From Clostridia bacterium (GTDB lineage Bacteria > Bacillota > DTU086), in the NCBI GenBank assembly GCA_012519005.1, contig JAAYRB010000149.1:1-35213 (forward strand): a DNA stretch of 35,213 bases. The letters are read 5' to 3'. A model generated the notes under the pieces. The model did not search any database. It was not told the origin of the DNA and saw only the letters and a list, made by a program, of their open reading frames with translations. Positions 24,753 to 31,427 of this stretch are shown here, piece by piece. The translations under genes and the position numbers were made by a program. Positions within the stretch are counted from its first letter, which is position 1. Each line of letters begins with the position of its first letter.

Positions 24753-25979
24753 ATGAGGAAAACAGTGGTGGCAGTTTTATCAATTGCTTTATTCTCAATG
24801 CTTTTATTAACGGCTTGCAGCGAGGGCAATGTGGTGGAAGGAGGAAAATATGACATATCAAATATAAATCAGGACATGATTGACGGCGGCAGCCAATTTG
24901 CCTTTGATGTATTCAAAAGTCTAAATAATGAGGATGCTAATAAAAGTATCTTCATATCCCCACTGAGTATCTCCTCTGCACTTACCATGACCTATAATGG
25001 GGCGGAAACAACGACAAAAAAGGCCATGGAGGAAGTACTGGGCCTTGGGGATTTGGACAGGGCTGTCGTCAACGAGAATTACAGCCATTTATTGAATTAC
25101 CTTCAAAATGCAGATGAAAGCATTGAACTTAATACTGCAAATTCCATATGGATTAGATCCGGTGAGGAAATAAAGAAAGACTTCCTGGAGAAAAACAGAA
25201 ATAACTTCAATGCGGAGATTGACACCTTAGACTTTTCTAGGGATTCTTCTGTGGATACCATAAACGAATGGATCGACAACGCCACCAAGGGCAAAATCAG
25301 CAAAATGCTTAATCCACCCATAAATCCCGATGTTATTATGTATCTTATCAATGCTATCTATTTCAAGGGTGAATGGGGCATGCAGTTTGACCCGGAAAGA
25401 ACATTTGATGGCGAATTCAAAACATTAAGCGGTAATAAACAAACCGTAAAAATGATGAGCCTTAAAGATGAATTCCAATTTATAGAGGGCGATGATTGCA
25501 AGGCTATCAGGCTTCCCTATGGAAATGGCCAGATGTCAATGTATGCTGTACTTCCTAATGAAAGTATCAGCATCAATGATTTTATCAAGGATCTAGACAG
25601 GGAATGGTGGGCCAATATTCGTGGTAACCTCGTGGAAACCGATGATGTCCTTGTACAAATGCCAAAGTTTAAATTGGAATATGGTATCAAAAACCTCAAT
25701 GATAACCTAAAAAACTTGGGTATGGAGGAAGCCTTCGGTGACGAGGCTGATTTCTCCGCTATAAGGGAAGATGTATATATTAGCAATGTTTTACATAAAG
25801 CTGTCATTGAAGTAAATGAAGAGGGAAGTGAAGCTGCCGCTGCAACAGTTGTGGAGGTGCAGGAAATGGCAGCCATGGAGCCTACAACCTTTATAGCAGA
25901 CAGACCCTTTGTATTTATAATAGCCGATGATACCACAGGATCCATACTTTTTATTGGTAAGCTTTTGGAAGTAGAATAA
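24753..25979 (+). CDS. Lipoprotein serpin (serine protease inhibitor)
   Basis: A complete 408-residue serpin. Residues 1-22 form a lipoprotein signal ending LLLTAC, with Cys22 the expected lipid-modified residue, so the inhibitor should be tethered to the outside of the membrane. Typical serpin signatures follow: NKSIFISPLSISSALTMTYNGA, LINAIYFKGEWGMQFD, VLHKAVIEVNEEGSEAAAAT and FIADRPFVFIIADDTTGSILFIGKL. The hinge is intact, with small residues at P15-P9, so it should be inhibitory. By alignment with alpha-1-antitrypsin (P17 = Glu356), P1 is Met372 and P1' Ala373, suggesting elastase-like or subtilisin-like targets. ACGGAGGTGA precedes the ATG. Confidence 0.95.
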   Translation: MRKTVVAVLSIALFSMLLLTACSEGNVVEGGKYDISNINQDMIDGGSQFAFDVFKSLNNEDANKSIFISPLSISSALTMTYNGAETTTKKAMEEVLGLGDLDRAVVNENYSHLLNYLQNADESIELNTANSIWIRSGEEIKKDFLEKNRNNFNAEIDTLDFSRDSSVDTINEWIDNATKGKISKMLNPPINPDVIMYLINAIYFKGEWGMQFDPERTFDGEFKTLSGNKQTVKMMSLKDEFQFIEGDDCKAIRLPYGNGQMSMYAVLPNESISINDFIKDLDREWWANIRGNLVETDDVLVQMPKFKLEYGIKNLNDNLKNLGMEEAFGDEADFSAIREDVYISNVLHKAVIEVNEEGSEAAAATVVEVQEMAAMEPTTFIADRPFVFIIADDTTGSILFIGKLLEVE

Positions 25980-26218: not shown

Positions 26219-26578
26219 ATGAGTAAATTAAATCTCACGGAAACAGAGTACCGCTTCGCATGTATTGTGTGGGAAAATGAACCCCTGGGCTCCGGTGAAT
26301 TGGTGGAGCTTTGTAATGAAGAACTGGGGTGGAAAAAATCCACAACCTATACGGTGTTAAAAAGGTTATGCGACAGGCAAATATTTAAAAATGTAAACGC
26401 CACCGTCAGTGCAATGGTGAAAAAAGAGCAGGTGCAGAAATTTAAAAGCGAAAAATTTATTAACAGGACATTCAACGGATCCCTACCCCATTTTATTACA
26501 AGTTTCATGAGTGATAGAAAGATTTCACAGGCGGAAGCGGATAAACTGAAGAAGCTTATTGACAGCTATAAGGGTTAG
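26219..26578 (+). CDS. BlaI/MecI/CopY family repressor
   Basis: The 119-residue protein has the BlaI-type winged helix: ETEYRFACIVWENEPLGSGELVELCNEELGWKKSTTYTVLKRLCDRQIF, then a helical dimerisation tail with MSDRKISQAEADKLKKLIDSYKG. In this family a zinc-dependent membrane protease cleaves the repressor after sensing an antibiotic. AAAGGAG precedes the ATG at 26219. Two identical dyads overlap its promoter, so it most likely represses its own operon. The M56 protease gene starts 10 bases after its stop codon, the usual sensor partner. Confidence 0.93.
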   Translation: MSKLNLTETEYRFACIVWENEPLGSGELVELCNEELGWKKSTTYTVLKRLCDRQIFKNVNATVSAMVKKEQVQKFKSEKFINRTFNGSLPHFITSFMSDRKISQAEADKLKKLIDSYKG

Positions 26579-26588
26579 GGGTGGGGAT

Positions 26589-28271
26589 ATGACGTATTTT
26601 CTGACGGACACCTTATTCTTAACGATGCTTAATATGAGCATTACCGCAAGTTATGTAATTGTTTTTGTATTGGCCGCAAGGTTGTTTCTTAAAAGGGTCC
26701 CAAAAATATTTTCCTATGCTCTATGGTCTATTGTATTATTTAGGCTAATATGCCCCTTTGGCTTTTCTTCCCCTTTCAGCCTTTTAAAGGCCTTTACTTC
26801 GAACACGGCTAAAATGGGCCACATTACAGGAAACACAGATTTAATGATGCAACCGAGCACATATACTGAGATAGGTAATGTGAGTTCCTTTATCAGTGAT
26901 TCCCTTCCGGCGGCAATGCCAAATGCCGGCGTAAGTCCCGTGCAAACCACTATATCTATCCTGTCTATTATTTGGATAATGGGTGTGCTGACTATGATTA
27001 TCCATGGTATTTATTCCTACTATAGATTAAAACAAAAGGTCAGTACGGCAATGCTTTTGAAGGATAATCAGTTTGAGTGCGAAAACATCGCAACACCCTT
27101 TATACTGGGAATAAAAAATCCTAAAATTTATTTACCCGTGGGCCTGTCTGTGACGGAAAAAAACTTTATATTGAGACATGAGGAAATACATATTAAAAGA
27201 TTTGACTATATAATCAAGCCCCTGGCATATTTTGTGCTGTGTATTCACTGGTTTAACCCCCTGGTGTGGCTTAGCTTTACATTGATGGGCCGTGATATGG
27301 AAATGTCCTGTGATGAGCAAGTGATAAAGGAACTGGGTCCTGAATTGAAAAAGGATTACAGTAAATCCCTGTTGTCCCTTGCCACAGACAGGATGGTCCT
27401 TGGTGTAAGCCCCCTCTCCTTCGGGGAATCCGCCGTAAAGGGACGGATCAAAAATATACTTAATTATCGGAAACCTACATTATGGGTAATTATAGTAGGC
27501 ATAGTGTTAGTGGTGGCCTTAGGCGTGGGATTGCTCAGCAATCCCAGTGCGGCTGTCTTGGAAGATGATAATGAAAAGATTCGGATGGCGGAAATTTGGG
27601 CAACGGCTTTAAAAACCCGAGACGGAAAGCCTCGTTATGAGATGATGTCAGAAAACATGAAAGAAAAATTCATTACAGAGCAAAAATTGAGGGCCGGAGA
27701 AGACTGGAATTTTAATATCGGCTATTCCAGCCCACGGGTTGTTGATTTCGAAATCCAGATGAACGGTGACACCGCCAGCATTATATATCATCAGGAAGAC
27801 AGCGGAGGGGATAAGTATGACCGCACTGAAATTCTTACATTCGGGATTGAGAACAACAGACTTGTAATTACAGATGCCCGGCAAAAAATTGAGGAGTGGG
27901 ATAGGTGGTCATATTTCGCAACCGATGCCAAGATGGCCCTGGATGTTTATACAGAGGCACTTCTTAATAGTGATTATCTTACCATCCTCTCCCTTACCCA
28001 TGATGCAGCCTTTGACCCGGAAGGGCAGGAGGTCTGGGATACTGTCAACATTAATGATGTAAAAGTGATAAAAGCAGATGTGCGGGAGAATAAGGCCTGC
28101 TATTGGTTGGAGCTTAATATCAAAGATGGAGGATATTCCGCTTTTGAAACCGGAGTTTCCCCGAGATGGTTGTGGCTTGTAAAAGGTGAACATGGTTGGT
28201 ATGCTGAGGGACTAATGACCGGAGGGCCGCCCATGGAAGACTGGTGGTATTCAAAAGATCCTATGAAATAA
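26589..28271 (+). CDS. BlaR1-like M56 membrane metalloprotease with unusual C-terminal domain
   Basis: The 560-residue protein has N-terminal membrane spans (about 10-33, 42-58, 120-142) and an intracellular M56 zinc protease with HEEIH at 197-201 and the downstream CDEQ ligand region at 241-244. The last span is WVIIVGIVLVVALGVGLLS at about 299-317. In BlaR1 and MecR1 the outer part is a penicillin-binding domain with an SxxK motif. Here the outer 240 residues show no such motif and look like two NTF2/DUF4829-like repeats (EMMSENMKEKF, AALLNSDYLTILSL type), so the sensed signal is probably not a beta-lactam. ATG 26589 is preferred over an upstream TTG at 26559 because GGGGTGGGG lies just before it. 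Confidence 0.88.
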   Translation: MTYFLTDTLFLTMLNMSITASYVIVFVLAARLFLKRVPKIFSYALWSIVLFRLICPFGFSSPFSLLKAFTSNTAKMGHITGNTDLMMQPSTYTEIGNVSSFISDSLPAAMPNAGVSPVQTTISILSIIWIMGVLTMIIHGIYSYYRLKQKVSTAMLLKDNQFECENIATPFILGIKNPKIYLPVGLSVTEKNFILRHEEIHIKRFDYIIKPLAYFVLCIHWFNPLVWLSFTLMGRDMEMSCDEQVIKELGPELKKDYSKSLLSLATDRMVLGVSPLSFGESAVKGRIKNILNYRKPTLWVIIVGIVLVVALGVGLLSNPSAAVLEDDNEKIRMAEIWATALKTRDGKPRYEMMSENMKEKFITEQKLRAGEDWNFNIGYSSPRVVDFEIQMNGDTASIIYHQEDSGGDKYDRTEILTFGIENNRLVITDARQKIEEWDRWSYFATDAKMALDVYTEALLNSDYLTILSLTHDAAFDPEGQEVWDTVNINDVKVIKADVRENKACYWLELNIKDGGYSAFETGVSPRWLWLVKGEHGWYAEGLMTGGPPMEDWWYSKDPMK

Positions 28272-28362: not shown

Positions 28363-28392
28363 TTGAAATAACATGTTTTTATATGGTATAAT
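28363..28392 (+). promoter_or_regulatory. Promoter of the ABC-F leader
   Basis: TTGAAA at 28363-28368 and TATAAT at 28387-28392 with an 18-base spacer. Transcription would start near 28399, 23 bases before the leader peptide. Confidence 0.6.
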
Positions 28393-28421
28393 CGAAATAA
28401 CAACTTGGAAGAGGTGTACGC

Positions 28422-28445
28422 ATGAAGATATTTCTTGCTAAATAA
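28422..28445 (+). CDS. Leader peptide MKIFLAK of the ABC-F gene
   Basis: ATG at 28422 encodes seven codons (MKIFLAK) and TAA, preceded by GGAAGAGGTG at 28407-28416. Short leader peptides are a recognised feature upstream of antibiotic-resistance ABC-F genes, where ribosomes slowed by the drug change the fold of the leader. The codons 28431-28443 pair with 28514-28526, which fits such a role. It is too short to confirm from sequence alone. Confidence 0.7.
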   Translation: MKIFLAK

Positions 28446-28663
28446 TTAATAAAATACGCACAGCTATTCAGTTGTTCTTATTGCCTAAAGCAATGACAGG
28501 TGTTGCTGTGTCCATTTAGCGAGAAATTTCCTTCAATATAATATTAACTTTAGAATATTATACTTATATTTTTTGTAATATTAGTTGGGATTTTTCTGTT
28601 CCCAACTTTTTTTATTTTGATATAATTTCTCGCTTTATACTAATTTAGGAGGGAGAAATTATA
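28431..28663 (+). promoter_or_regulatory. ABC-F attenuator with alternative pairings
   Basis: Four segments can pair. Segment 1 (28431-28443, inside the leader peptide) pairs with segment 2 (28514-28526) over 13 bp with one G-U. Segment 3 (28621-28631) pairs perfectly over 11 bp with segment 4 (28653-28663), which covers the spacer and first base of the ABC-F start codon. Segment 2 (28518-28528) also pairs perfectly over 11 bp with segment 3 (28624-28634). Thus 1:2 plus 3:4 would be OFF, and 2:3 would be ON when a ribosome stalls on the leader. Inner hairpins CACAGC/GCTGTG and ATTGC/GCAAT lie in the 1:2 loop. The fold is read by eye. Confidence 0.65.
28583..28613 (+). terminator. Intrinsic terminator in the ABC-F leader
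   Basis: AGTTGGGA at 28583-28590 pairs with TCCCAACT at 28600-28607 around a 9-base loop, followed by a T run to 28613. Lying between leader peptide and structural gene, it would act as an attenuator. Confidence 0.8.
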
Positions 28664-30135
28664 TGGCCTTGATAGATATCAGCAATCTAACATTTGAATA
28701 TCCCGGGAGCTTTGAACCCATTTTCAATGATTTAAATTTAAAGTTAGATACGGACTGGAAATTGGGCTTTATAGGAAGGAATGGTTATGGTAAAACAACA
28801 TTTTTAAAACTTTTAATGGGTGAGCTTTTCTACAAAGGGTCCATTACTAAACCGCTACCCATGGCCTATTTCCCTTTTTCCATTGATCATTACGATATCA
28901 CAACTTTAAATTTATTGGAGTTACTTCAGCCCGATTTTGAGTTGTGGAGATTGATGAAGGAAATGCATCCATTGGAAGTAGGGGAAGAAGTGTTGTATCG
29001 CCCGTTCAACACATTAAGCGGCGGTGAGCAAACTAAGATTCTATTGGCGCTGCTATTTGCGGAAGAGGAGAGGTTTTTACTCATTGATGAACCTACCAAT
29101 CACTTAGACAGCCGTGGCAGGGAGGTGGTGGCCGAATATTTAAATAGCAAGAAAGGATTTATACTGGTGTCCCATGACAGGGAATTTATAAATGATATAG
29201 CGGACCATATCTTGGCCATAGAGAAAAATAAGGTTGTTCTTCAAAGGGGTACCTATGATACCTGGGAACAAAACAAAAATTATGAAGATCAGTATGAACT
29301 GGAAAAAAATCAAAGGCTCAGGAAAGAACTGAGAAGGCTGAAACAATCAGCCAGGGAAGTGGCCACTTGGTCCGATAAGGGGGAGGCTGCTAAATTCGGG
29401 TCCGGTCCAGTGGATAGAGGTTTTATAGGACATAAGGCAGCAAAAATGATGAAACGTTCGAAGAATATAGAAAGCAGATATGAGAAGGCCATAGGGGATA
29501 AAGAGAATTTATTAAAAAATATAGAACCCATAGAACCATTGCAAATGAATGTGTTGGGGCATCATGCAAAACAATATGTAAATATAGAAGATTTTACAGT
29601 TGCTTATGGCAGTAAAAACGTTTTTAAACCCTTACAATTCACGGTTGAAAAAGGTGACTGCGTTGTATTAAAGGGAAGTAATGGAAGCGGCAAATCAAGC
29701 ATCATTAAAGCGATTCTGGGGGATAAGATTCCCTGGAGGGGTAGGCTTGAAGTTGCCAAGGGGATTATTATTTCCTATGTCCCACAGAAATTTCATTTTG
29801 TAAAAGGAAGCATAAATGAATTTATTGATAAAGAGCAAATAGATAAAACAAATTTCCTGACCATTTTGAGGAAGCTTGGGTTTTCAAGAAATCAATTTGC
29901 TATACCCATTGAAAGCTTCAGTATGGGGCAAAGGAAAAAGATATTCCTGGCAAGGTCCATATGCGACAATGCACATTTATTTATCTGGGATGAACCTCTC
30001 AACTATATTGATGTAATCTCAAGAATTCAAATAGAGAATATGATTTTGGATTACTCGCCAACCATGGTTCTAGTGGAACATGACAGGAGATTTGTAGATA
30101 AAGTGGCCACAGACATTATAGAATTGTCTGAGTAA
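28663..30135 (+). CDS. ABC-F ribosome-protection protein, Lsa-like
   Basis: The 490-residue protein has two ABC ATPase domains without membrane spans. Walker A GRNGYGKTT is at 38-46, LSGGEQTKILLALLF and LLIDEPTNHLD follow, and a charged linker (about 190-300) leads to the second domain with GSNGSGKSS, FSMGQRKKIFLARS and FIWDEPLNYID. Phrases such as DTDWKLGFIGRNGYGKTT, GFILVSHDRE and HILAIEK strongly recall Lsa proteins, which displace lincosamides, streptogramin A and pleuromutilins from the ribosome. The actual drug range cannot be told from this sequence. AGGAGG at 28647-28652 precedes the ATG; expression appears leader-controlled. The next gene starts 37 bases later. Confidence 0.92.
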   Translation: MALIDISNLTFEYPGSFEPIFNDLNLKLDTDWKLGFIGRNGYGKTTFLKLLMGELFYKGSITKPLPMAYFPFSIDHYDITTLNLLELLQPDFELWRLMKEMHPLEVGEEVLYRPFNTLSGGEQTKILLALLFAEEERFLLIDEPTNHLDSRGREVVAEYLNSKKGFILVSHDREFINDIADHILAIEKNKVVLQRGTYDTWEQNKNYEDQYELEKNQRLRKELRRLKQSAREVATWSDKGEAAKFGSGPVDRGFIGHKAAKMMKRSKNIESRYEKAIGDKENLLKNIEPIEPLQMNVLGHHAKQYVNIEDFTVAYGSKNVFKPLQFTVEKGDCVVLKGSNGSGKSSIIKAILGDKIPWRGRLEVAKGIIISYVPQKFHFVKGSINEFIDKEQIDKTNFLTILRKLGFSRNQFAIPIESFSMGQRKKIFLARSICDNAHLFIWDEPLNYIDVISRIQIENMILDYSPTMVLVEHDRRFVDKVATDIIELSE

Positions 30136-31094: not shown

Positions 31095-31427
31095 ATGAAA
31101 AAGATCTATACCACAAGCGAGATAAAATCGAAACTATTGCCAGTGTTTAGTGTAGCCCCCGTTGAAAAGGCCATACTTTTCGGATCCTACGCAAAGGGAA
31201 ACCCAACACGGACTAGTGATATTGATATAGTAATTGACAGCAAAGGCAAGATAAGGGGTATTGATTTTTTTGGCGTACTCGAGGACATTGTGAATGTCCT
31301 TGACGTTCCCGTTGATTTGATTGAGGCGTCGCAAATTATAGATGGGAGTCGTGTGCAACGTGAAATTTTAGAAACGGGGGTACTGATTTATGAAAAAGCA
31401 TATTGGTTGACAGCATTAACAATTTAG
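31095..31427 (+). CDS. Minimal nucleotidyltransferase (MNT) protein, orphan
   Basis: The 110-residue protein has the nucleotidyltransferase signature KAILFGSYAKGNPTRTSDIDIVID (residues about 26-49): the GSxAxG loop plus two metal-binding aspartates, with a third acidic residue in PVDLIEA. Such MntA proteins are usually antitoxins that AMPylate a HEPN ribonuclease encoded next door. No HEPN gene is present on either side: downstream is a 214-base gap without an open frame of note. The C-terminal tail AYWLTALTI extends beyond the usual end at YEK and looks like read-on into non-coding sequence. AGGAGGGG precedes the ATG. Confidence 0.85.
   Translation: MKKIYTTSEIKSKLLPVFSVAPVEKAILFGSYAKGNPTRTSDIDIVIDSKGKIRGIDFFGVLEDIVNVLDVPVDLIEASQIIDGSRVQREILETGVLIYEKAYWLTALTI

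Follow-up and report, generated by a model that had tools for sequence, protein, structure and literature searches.

A probable two-layer, ribosome-mediated attenuator in the leader of an Lsa-like ABC-F resistance gene, and its relation to a wider family of Lsa-type leaders

The leader of an Lsa-like ABC-F resistance gene in the window (the whole 35,213-nucleotide stretch of Clostridia bacterium DNA that was analysed) is probably a ribosome-mediated attenuator that acts twice, on transcription and then on translation. Most likely it belongs with the two-layer attenuators of VmlR and CplR, its second layer being ermC-like, and follows a known strategy with previously undescribed parts. This reading is based on what the sequence and the comparison with relatives show, namely the segments and the terminator, how they are conserved and some of their covariation, and it corrects a purely translational one. 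The original prediction had described an ermC-like switch in the 242 bases at 28422-28663, in which helices 1:2 and 3:4 alternate with 2:3, and had overlooked both the intrinsic terminator and the promoter (Table 1). A single RNA segment, segment 2, appears to serve three successive partners, which makes this leader a compact case.

Table 1. Features of the ABC-F leader and gene, in window coordinates
Feature	Position	Strand	Basis or remarks
Predicted sigma-A promoter, TTGAAA-18-TATAAT with extended -10 TG	28363..28392	+	11/12 consensus match
uORF MKIFLAK, ATG AAG ATA TTT CTT GCT AAA TAA	28422..28445	+	SD-like GGAAGAGG upstream
Hairpin GCACAGC...GCTGTGT between segments 1 and 2	28458..28511	+	Predicted in every fold; arms roughly conserved in relatives
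Segment 2, ATTTAGCGAGAAATTTCCTTCAATA	28514..28538	+	Partners: segment 1, terminator 5' arm/loop, segment 3
Intrinsic terminator, AGTTGGGA / TCCCAACT, 9-nt loop, U-tract TTTTTT	28583..28614	+	Lies between segments 2 and 3; conserved in five leaders
Antiterminator arm (terminator 5' arm and loop)	28586..28597	+	Pairs with segment 2 at 28522-28533
Segment 3, ATATAATTTCTCGCT	28620..28634	+	Alternative partners: segment 4 or segment 2
SD AGGAGG (28647-28652) and segment 4 (28653-28664), reaching the AU of the start codon	28647..28664	+	Sequence, folding
Lsa-like antibiotic-resistance ABC-F ATPase, 490 aa	28663..30135	+	Profile scores

The gene, its uORF and the close relatives

The ABC-F protein scores 675 bits against the Lsa model NF000167, the best value among all models but short of the curated cut-off of 750, and passes the cut-off of the ribosomal protection-like ABC-F model NF000355 (451 bits vs 380). 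A genome scan returned four close homologues, L014, L015, L016 and L017, with 81, 79, 77 and 64% protein identity, respectively. Their flanks have no similarity to those of the window, and therefore the conservation described below belongs to the leader and the gene. This close-clade comparison comprises five leaders only (the window and L014-L017). A TATAAT-like box occupies the equivalent position in all four relatives, and in the window the transcript would start near 28398-28400.

Other searches for close-clade members extended the set little. A pattern scan of 399 genomes of the phylum matched only the window, and a search of plasmid DNA gave no match; searches at the levels of order and class covered only 4-5 genomes, and viral contigs carried homologues of 48-49% only. 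Genome G157 has a gene at 83% on a contig that starts inside the gene, and the leader was not found elsewhere in that genome. Neither the window nor any of 18 related loci reached the gathering score of an Rfam model.

As originally proposed, the uORF codons pair with segment 2: the repeat search found that 28427-28443 (segment 1) and 28514-28530 are 88% complementary over 17 nt. A 14-bp uORF helix arose in 5/400 dinucleotide shuffles, and the leader as a whole is more stable than its shuffles (folding z -4.69). In L014-L017 the MxIFLAK pattern and the bases ATATTTCTTGCTAAATAAT are invariant, and segment 1 and the bases around it are identical. The hairpin between segments 1 and 2 could act as a pause hairpin.

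Terminator and antiterminator

The terminator, whose stem arms are 28583-28590 and 28600-28607, was missed by a pattern scanner that allows loops of up to 8 bases, the loop here having 9. Its presence in the leader is predicted from sequence and covariation: the pair tables contain three compensatory pairs across the five leaders, and segment 2, the terminator, the U-tract and the antiterminator are retained in all four relatives. The antiterminator helix between segment 2 and the terminator 5' arm keeps 9-11 of 12 pairs in each of the five leaders. At its pair 10, a change from C-G to U-A accompanies a change from G-C to A-U in the terminator, a three-way covariation that takes in segment 2 and the 3' arm of the terminator. 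Judged by these signatures, the transcription layer appears universal in the clade.

Constrained folding, in which occlusion was modelled as a ribosome sitting at the uORF start codon, gave a matching picture. When the uORF was free, helix 1:2 was certain and the antiterminator had P = 0.002; when it was occluded and the 3' arm of the terminator was still missing, the antiterminator rose to P = 0.96. Folding and covariation over the five sequences thus predict an antiterminator that is mutually exclusive with the uORF stem and with the terminator. After synthesis of the 3' arm, the terminator is favoured at equilibrium (P about 0.97) even with the uORF occluded, and therefore antitermination must be kinetic, like that of other attenuators.

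The start-codon hairpin and helix 2:3

The second layer concerns the start region of the ABC-F gene, where the repeat search found segment 3 (28620-28634) to be 93% complementary to 28650-28664 over 15 nt. The core of this helix, 28620-28631 with 28653-28664, consists of 12 perfect base pairs. The pairing with the start region therefore holds as first described, except that it had been thought to take in just the first base of the start codon, while the perfect core includes both its A and its U. Base accessibilities, from which the sequestration was read, leave the AU of the start codon only 0.02-0.06 unpaired in the free fold. Segments 2 and 4 have the direct repeat AGCGAGAAATT / AGGGAGAAATT in common, and the earlier observation that this repeat lets segment 3 pair perfectly with either was correct, as 28518-28528 and 28624-28634 (helix 2:3) are 100% complementary over 11 nt.

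Whether segment 3 moves to segment 2, as had been claimed, was assessed for the full-length leader by constrained folding with the Turner and Andronescu energy models at two temperatures. In the window with its uORF occluded, P(2:3) was 0.09 at 37 °C and 0.36 at 50 °C with Turner parameters, under which 3:4 still outweighed 2:3, and 0.93-0.94 with those of Andronescu. The two helices would thus be near balance in the window, a case that prediction cannot decide. In L014 and L015, by comparison, occlusion gave P(2:3) of 0.86-0.95 and opened the SD and AUG with both energy models and at both temperatures.

The relatives differ in this layer. Helix 2:3 retains 12-13 of 14 pairs in the window, L014 and L015; in L016 it is weakened by A-C mismatches, and L017 lacks segment 3 and with it any partner for 2:3, so that conservation of 2:3 throughout the clade was ruled out. 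Helix 3:4 is kept in three of the four relatives, with compensatory pairs (U-A/A-U/C-G and U-A/C-G) across the window and L014-L016, including a U-A to C-G change in L016. Four of the five leaders have the start-codon layer, which is convincing as a predicted switch in two or three of them.

These differences could mean that the leader regulates by transcription attenuation only, the terminator and antiterminator doing the work and the 3:4 hairpin and 2:3 complementarity being incidental or a passive restraint on translation. L017, which has the uORF, segment 2, the terminator and the antiterminator but no segment 3, would fit this explanation, as would L016, with 2:3 broken and 3:4 kept, and the low P(2:3) of the window with Turner parameters. 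We nevertheless regard it as unlikely, given that a perfect 12-bp helix at the SD and start codon arose in 0/400 dinucleotide shuffles and a complement to segment 3 within the stretch 28446-28582 in 0/2000, that 3:4 carries compensatory changes, and that simulated stalling opens the SD and AUG in L014 and L015.

The opposite simplification, ErmC-type translational attenuation with a hairpin at 28583-28614 that is no working terminator, was in essence the original proposal. Its layout of 1:2, 3:4 and 2:3, which does resemble ermC, stands, together with the compensatory changes in 3:4, the strong predicted sequestration of the start codon and the in silico opening in L014 and L015. As the sole layer, however, such a switch is very improbable: a U-tract hairpin with three compensatory pairs lies between segments 2 and 3 in all five leaders, segment 2 has a second partner in this hairpin and co-varies with its 5' arm, and most of the wider Lsa-type leaders with this uORF motif also have a terminator.

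Proposed mechanism

The terminator is conserved in the five leaders and contains the better-conserved partner of segment 2, so the preferred two-layer reading places transcription attenuation first and the ermC-like step on the read-through mRNA. In the sequence of events that we infer, including the drug-dependent arrest, the efficiency of termination and the order of the steps, the uORF would be translated in the absence of drug and its ribosome released, so that segment 1 pairs with segment 2 as an anti-antiterminator and the terminator forms. Transcription would mostly halt at about 28614, and the few read-through transcripts would have the SD and the first two start-codon bases hidden in 3:4. 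If a drug of the Lsa spectrum that inhibits early elongation (lincosamide, pleuromutilin, streptogramin A) arrests the ribosome on the first uORF codons, segment 1 would be covered; the freed segment 2 could then pair with the 5' arm and loop of the terminator before its 3' arm is made, letting the polymerase read through. In the finished mRNA, segment 2 could shift to segment 3, whereupon the terminator hairpin would re-form harmlessly and the SD and start codon would be freed.

An extremely improbable alternative has the uORF report a general slowdown of translation (amino-acid or initiation-factor limitation) and not an antibiotic, for which the unconserved uORF peptide of the wider family, implying that no specific codon is sensed, and the induction of VmlR by general translation defects as well (PMC9226507) can be cited, but the regulated gene is a target-protection ABC-F and the demonstrated trigger in VmlR, CplR and MsrD is drug-induced arrest.

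Comparison with known attenuators

The original prediction considered translational attenuation unusual for ABC-F genes, a view that is outdated. VmlR combines transcription and translation layers in a four-part layout whose fourth, SD-sequestering stem is disfavoured by the induced fold (PMC9226507). In CplR the synergy of transcriptional and translational attenuation was shown with reporters (PMC10201436). According to a review, msrA is translationally attenuated (PMC8615237), and MsrD is controlled by a terminator (PMC10314930).

The vmlR leader of Bacillus subtilis shares with the window a uORF inside an anti-antiterminator stem, an intermediate hairpin, an intrinsic terminator and an SD-sequestering hairpin, and its induced fold is described as incompatible with the first stem, the terminator and the SD hairpin (PMC9226507). 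The two differ in the uORF (MIN in vmlR, MKIFLAK here) and in the ABC-F subfamily; unlike in vmlR, segment 2 of the window has three explicit partners and segment 4 extends into the start codon. The cplR gene of Clostridioides difficile is an ABC-F gene under uORF-controlled dual attenuation (PMC10201436), as proposed for the window, but its SD is sequestered by the terminator hairpin itself, whereas in the window the terminator and the SD/start hairpin are separate. The window has in common with ermC the segment logic of 1:2 and 3:4 versus 2:3 and a start region hidden in 3:4. Unlike ermC, it has a conserved terminator separating segment 2 from segment 3, and it departs from the ermC type, with its conserved peptide for drug-dependent stalling, in that MxIFLAK is conserved within the close clade only.

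LsaA has been assigned the uORF MAGN (PMC10201436), and lsaA and the wider Lsa-type leaders resemble the window in combining an Lsa-type ABC-F gene with a short uORF. The wider leaders also commonly have the TTTCTTGC of segment 1 and a complementary segment 2. They differ in that the second partner of segment 2 is the terminator loop and 3' arm, in that a terminator occurs where the window clade has segment 3, and in their uORFs, which are MxxFSC, MDISC or start-stop instead of MKIFLAK. No description of MxIFLAK or MxxFSC leaders was found in the open-access literature.

The wider family of Lsa-type leaders

Among about 110 homologues, mostly with 48-54% identity, many have TTTCTTGC early in the leader upstream of the gene. 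In these wider leaders the complementary GCAAGAAA follows about 60-80 bases after TTTCTTGC, and the 3' arm of the terminator repeats TTTCTTGC. The way in which the motif is read was compared in 64 leaders with a candidate uORF, a set that includes some duplicates and one probably mis-anchored leader (L100): 36 end in SC-stop (mostly MxxFSC), 6 read FLA in the frame of the window, 17 show a candidate start-stop uORF immediately ahead of the motif, 3 have a two-codon uORF and 2 have others.

The uORF peptide, its frame and its length thus vary, and the UUUCUUGC/GCAAGAAA switch is kept. That the same RNA bases are kept in two frames and also outside any frame argues that RNA pairing, and not the peptide, is selected. 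This suggests that early arrest is sensed and not the uORF peptide, in keeping with drugs that stop ribosomes on the first codons. In 49 distinct leaders, 87.6% of positions pair between segment 2 and the loop and 3' arm of the terminator (2:T3), compared with 82.8% for permuted partners (0/2000; relatedness ignored), and controls slid in register gave 0.39-0.49 paired. This covariation, uncorrected for relatedness, serves as support only.

Taken together, Lsa-type genes across the Firmicutes, including plasmid-borne lsa(E), may use one undescribed switch, in which UUUCUUGC:GCAAGAAA alternates with GCAAGAAA:terminator, the uORF peptide is irrelevant and a ribosome arrested at or beside the start codon acts as the sensor. 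To this the window clade would have added an ermC-like start-codon switch, using one segment for antitermination and then for translation. This proposal is tentative and, in our estimation, falls slightly below an even chance. It would link intrinsic and plasmid-borne Lsa-type resistance to lincosamides and pleuromutilins, lsa(E) included, to one testable leader, and the peptide-independent family is a more interesting lead than the window leader itself. With a peptide that shifts or is absent, the natural candidate start-stop variants allow a direct test of what the uORF senses.

The candidate start-stop uORFs (ATG-TAA, ATG-TAG, ATG-TGA) directly precede TTTCTTGC in Lsa-type leaders of Paenibacillus and Cohnella (L034, L038, L044, L048, L068, L076, L077, L089, L090 and others) and lie some 200-215 bases before the ABC-F gene begins. 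Among these candidates, one uses GTG and many have a long SD spacing of about 12; the ATG-TAA of L089 has the usual 9.

The plasmid gene lsa(E) (L119, pJEG050), which is of clinical relevance, has a leader with the uORF MYNFSC. At L119:248-430 this MYNFSC leader, segment 2 and the terminator lie about 350-170 bases upstream of lsa(E), and an extra stretch of 150 bases with a further small reading frame separates the terminator from the gene. The Lsa-like ABC-F matches in the genomes L100 and L102 each contain, according to the search, one in-frame TAA.

Genomic surroundings

Directly upstream of the ABC-F leader, at 26219-28271 of the window, a gene resembling BlaI/penicillinase repressors overlaps one for a BlaR1-like M56 peptidase. 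The gene at 24753-25979 of this bacterial genome encodes a serpin (serine protease inhibitor) of full length, which matches PF00079 with 395 bits. Just downstream, at 31095-31427, lies a gene for an MntA-like nucleotidyltransferase, which scores 49.8 bits against a type VII antitoxin model, below the cut-off of 60.
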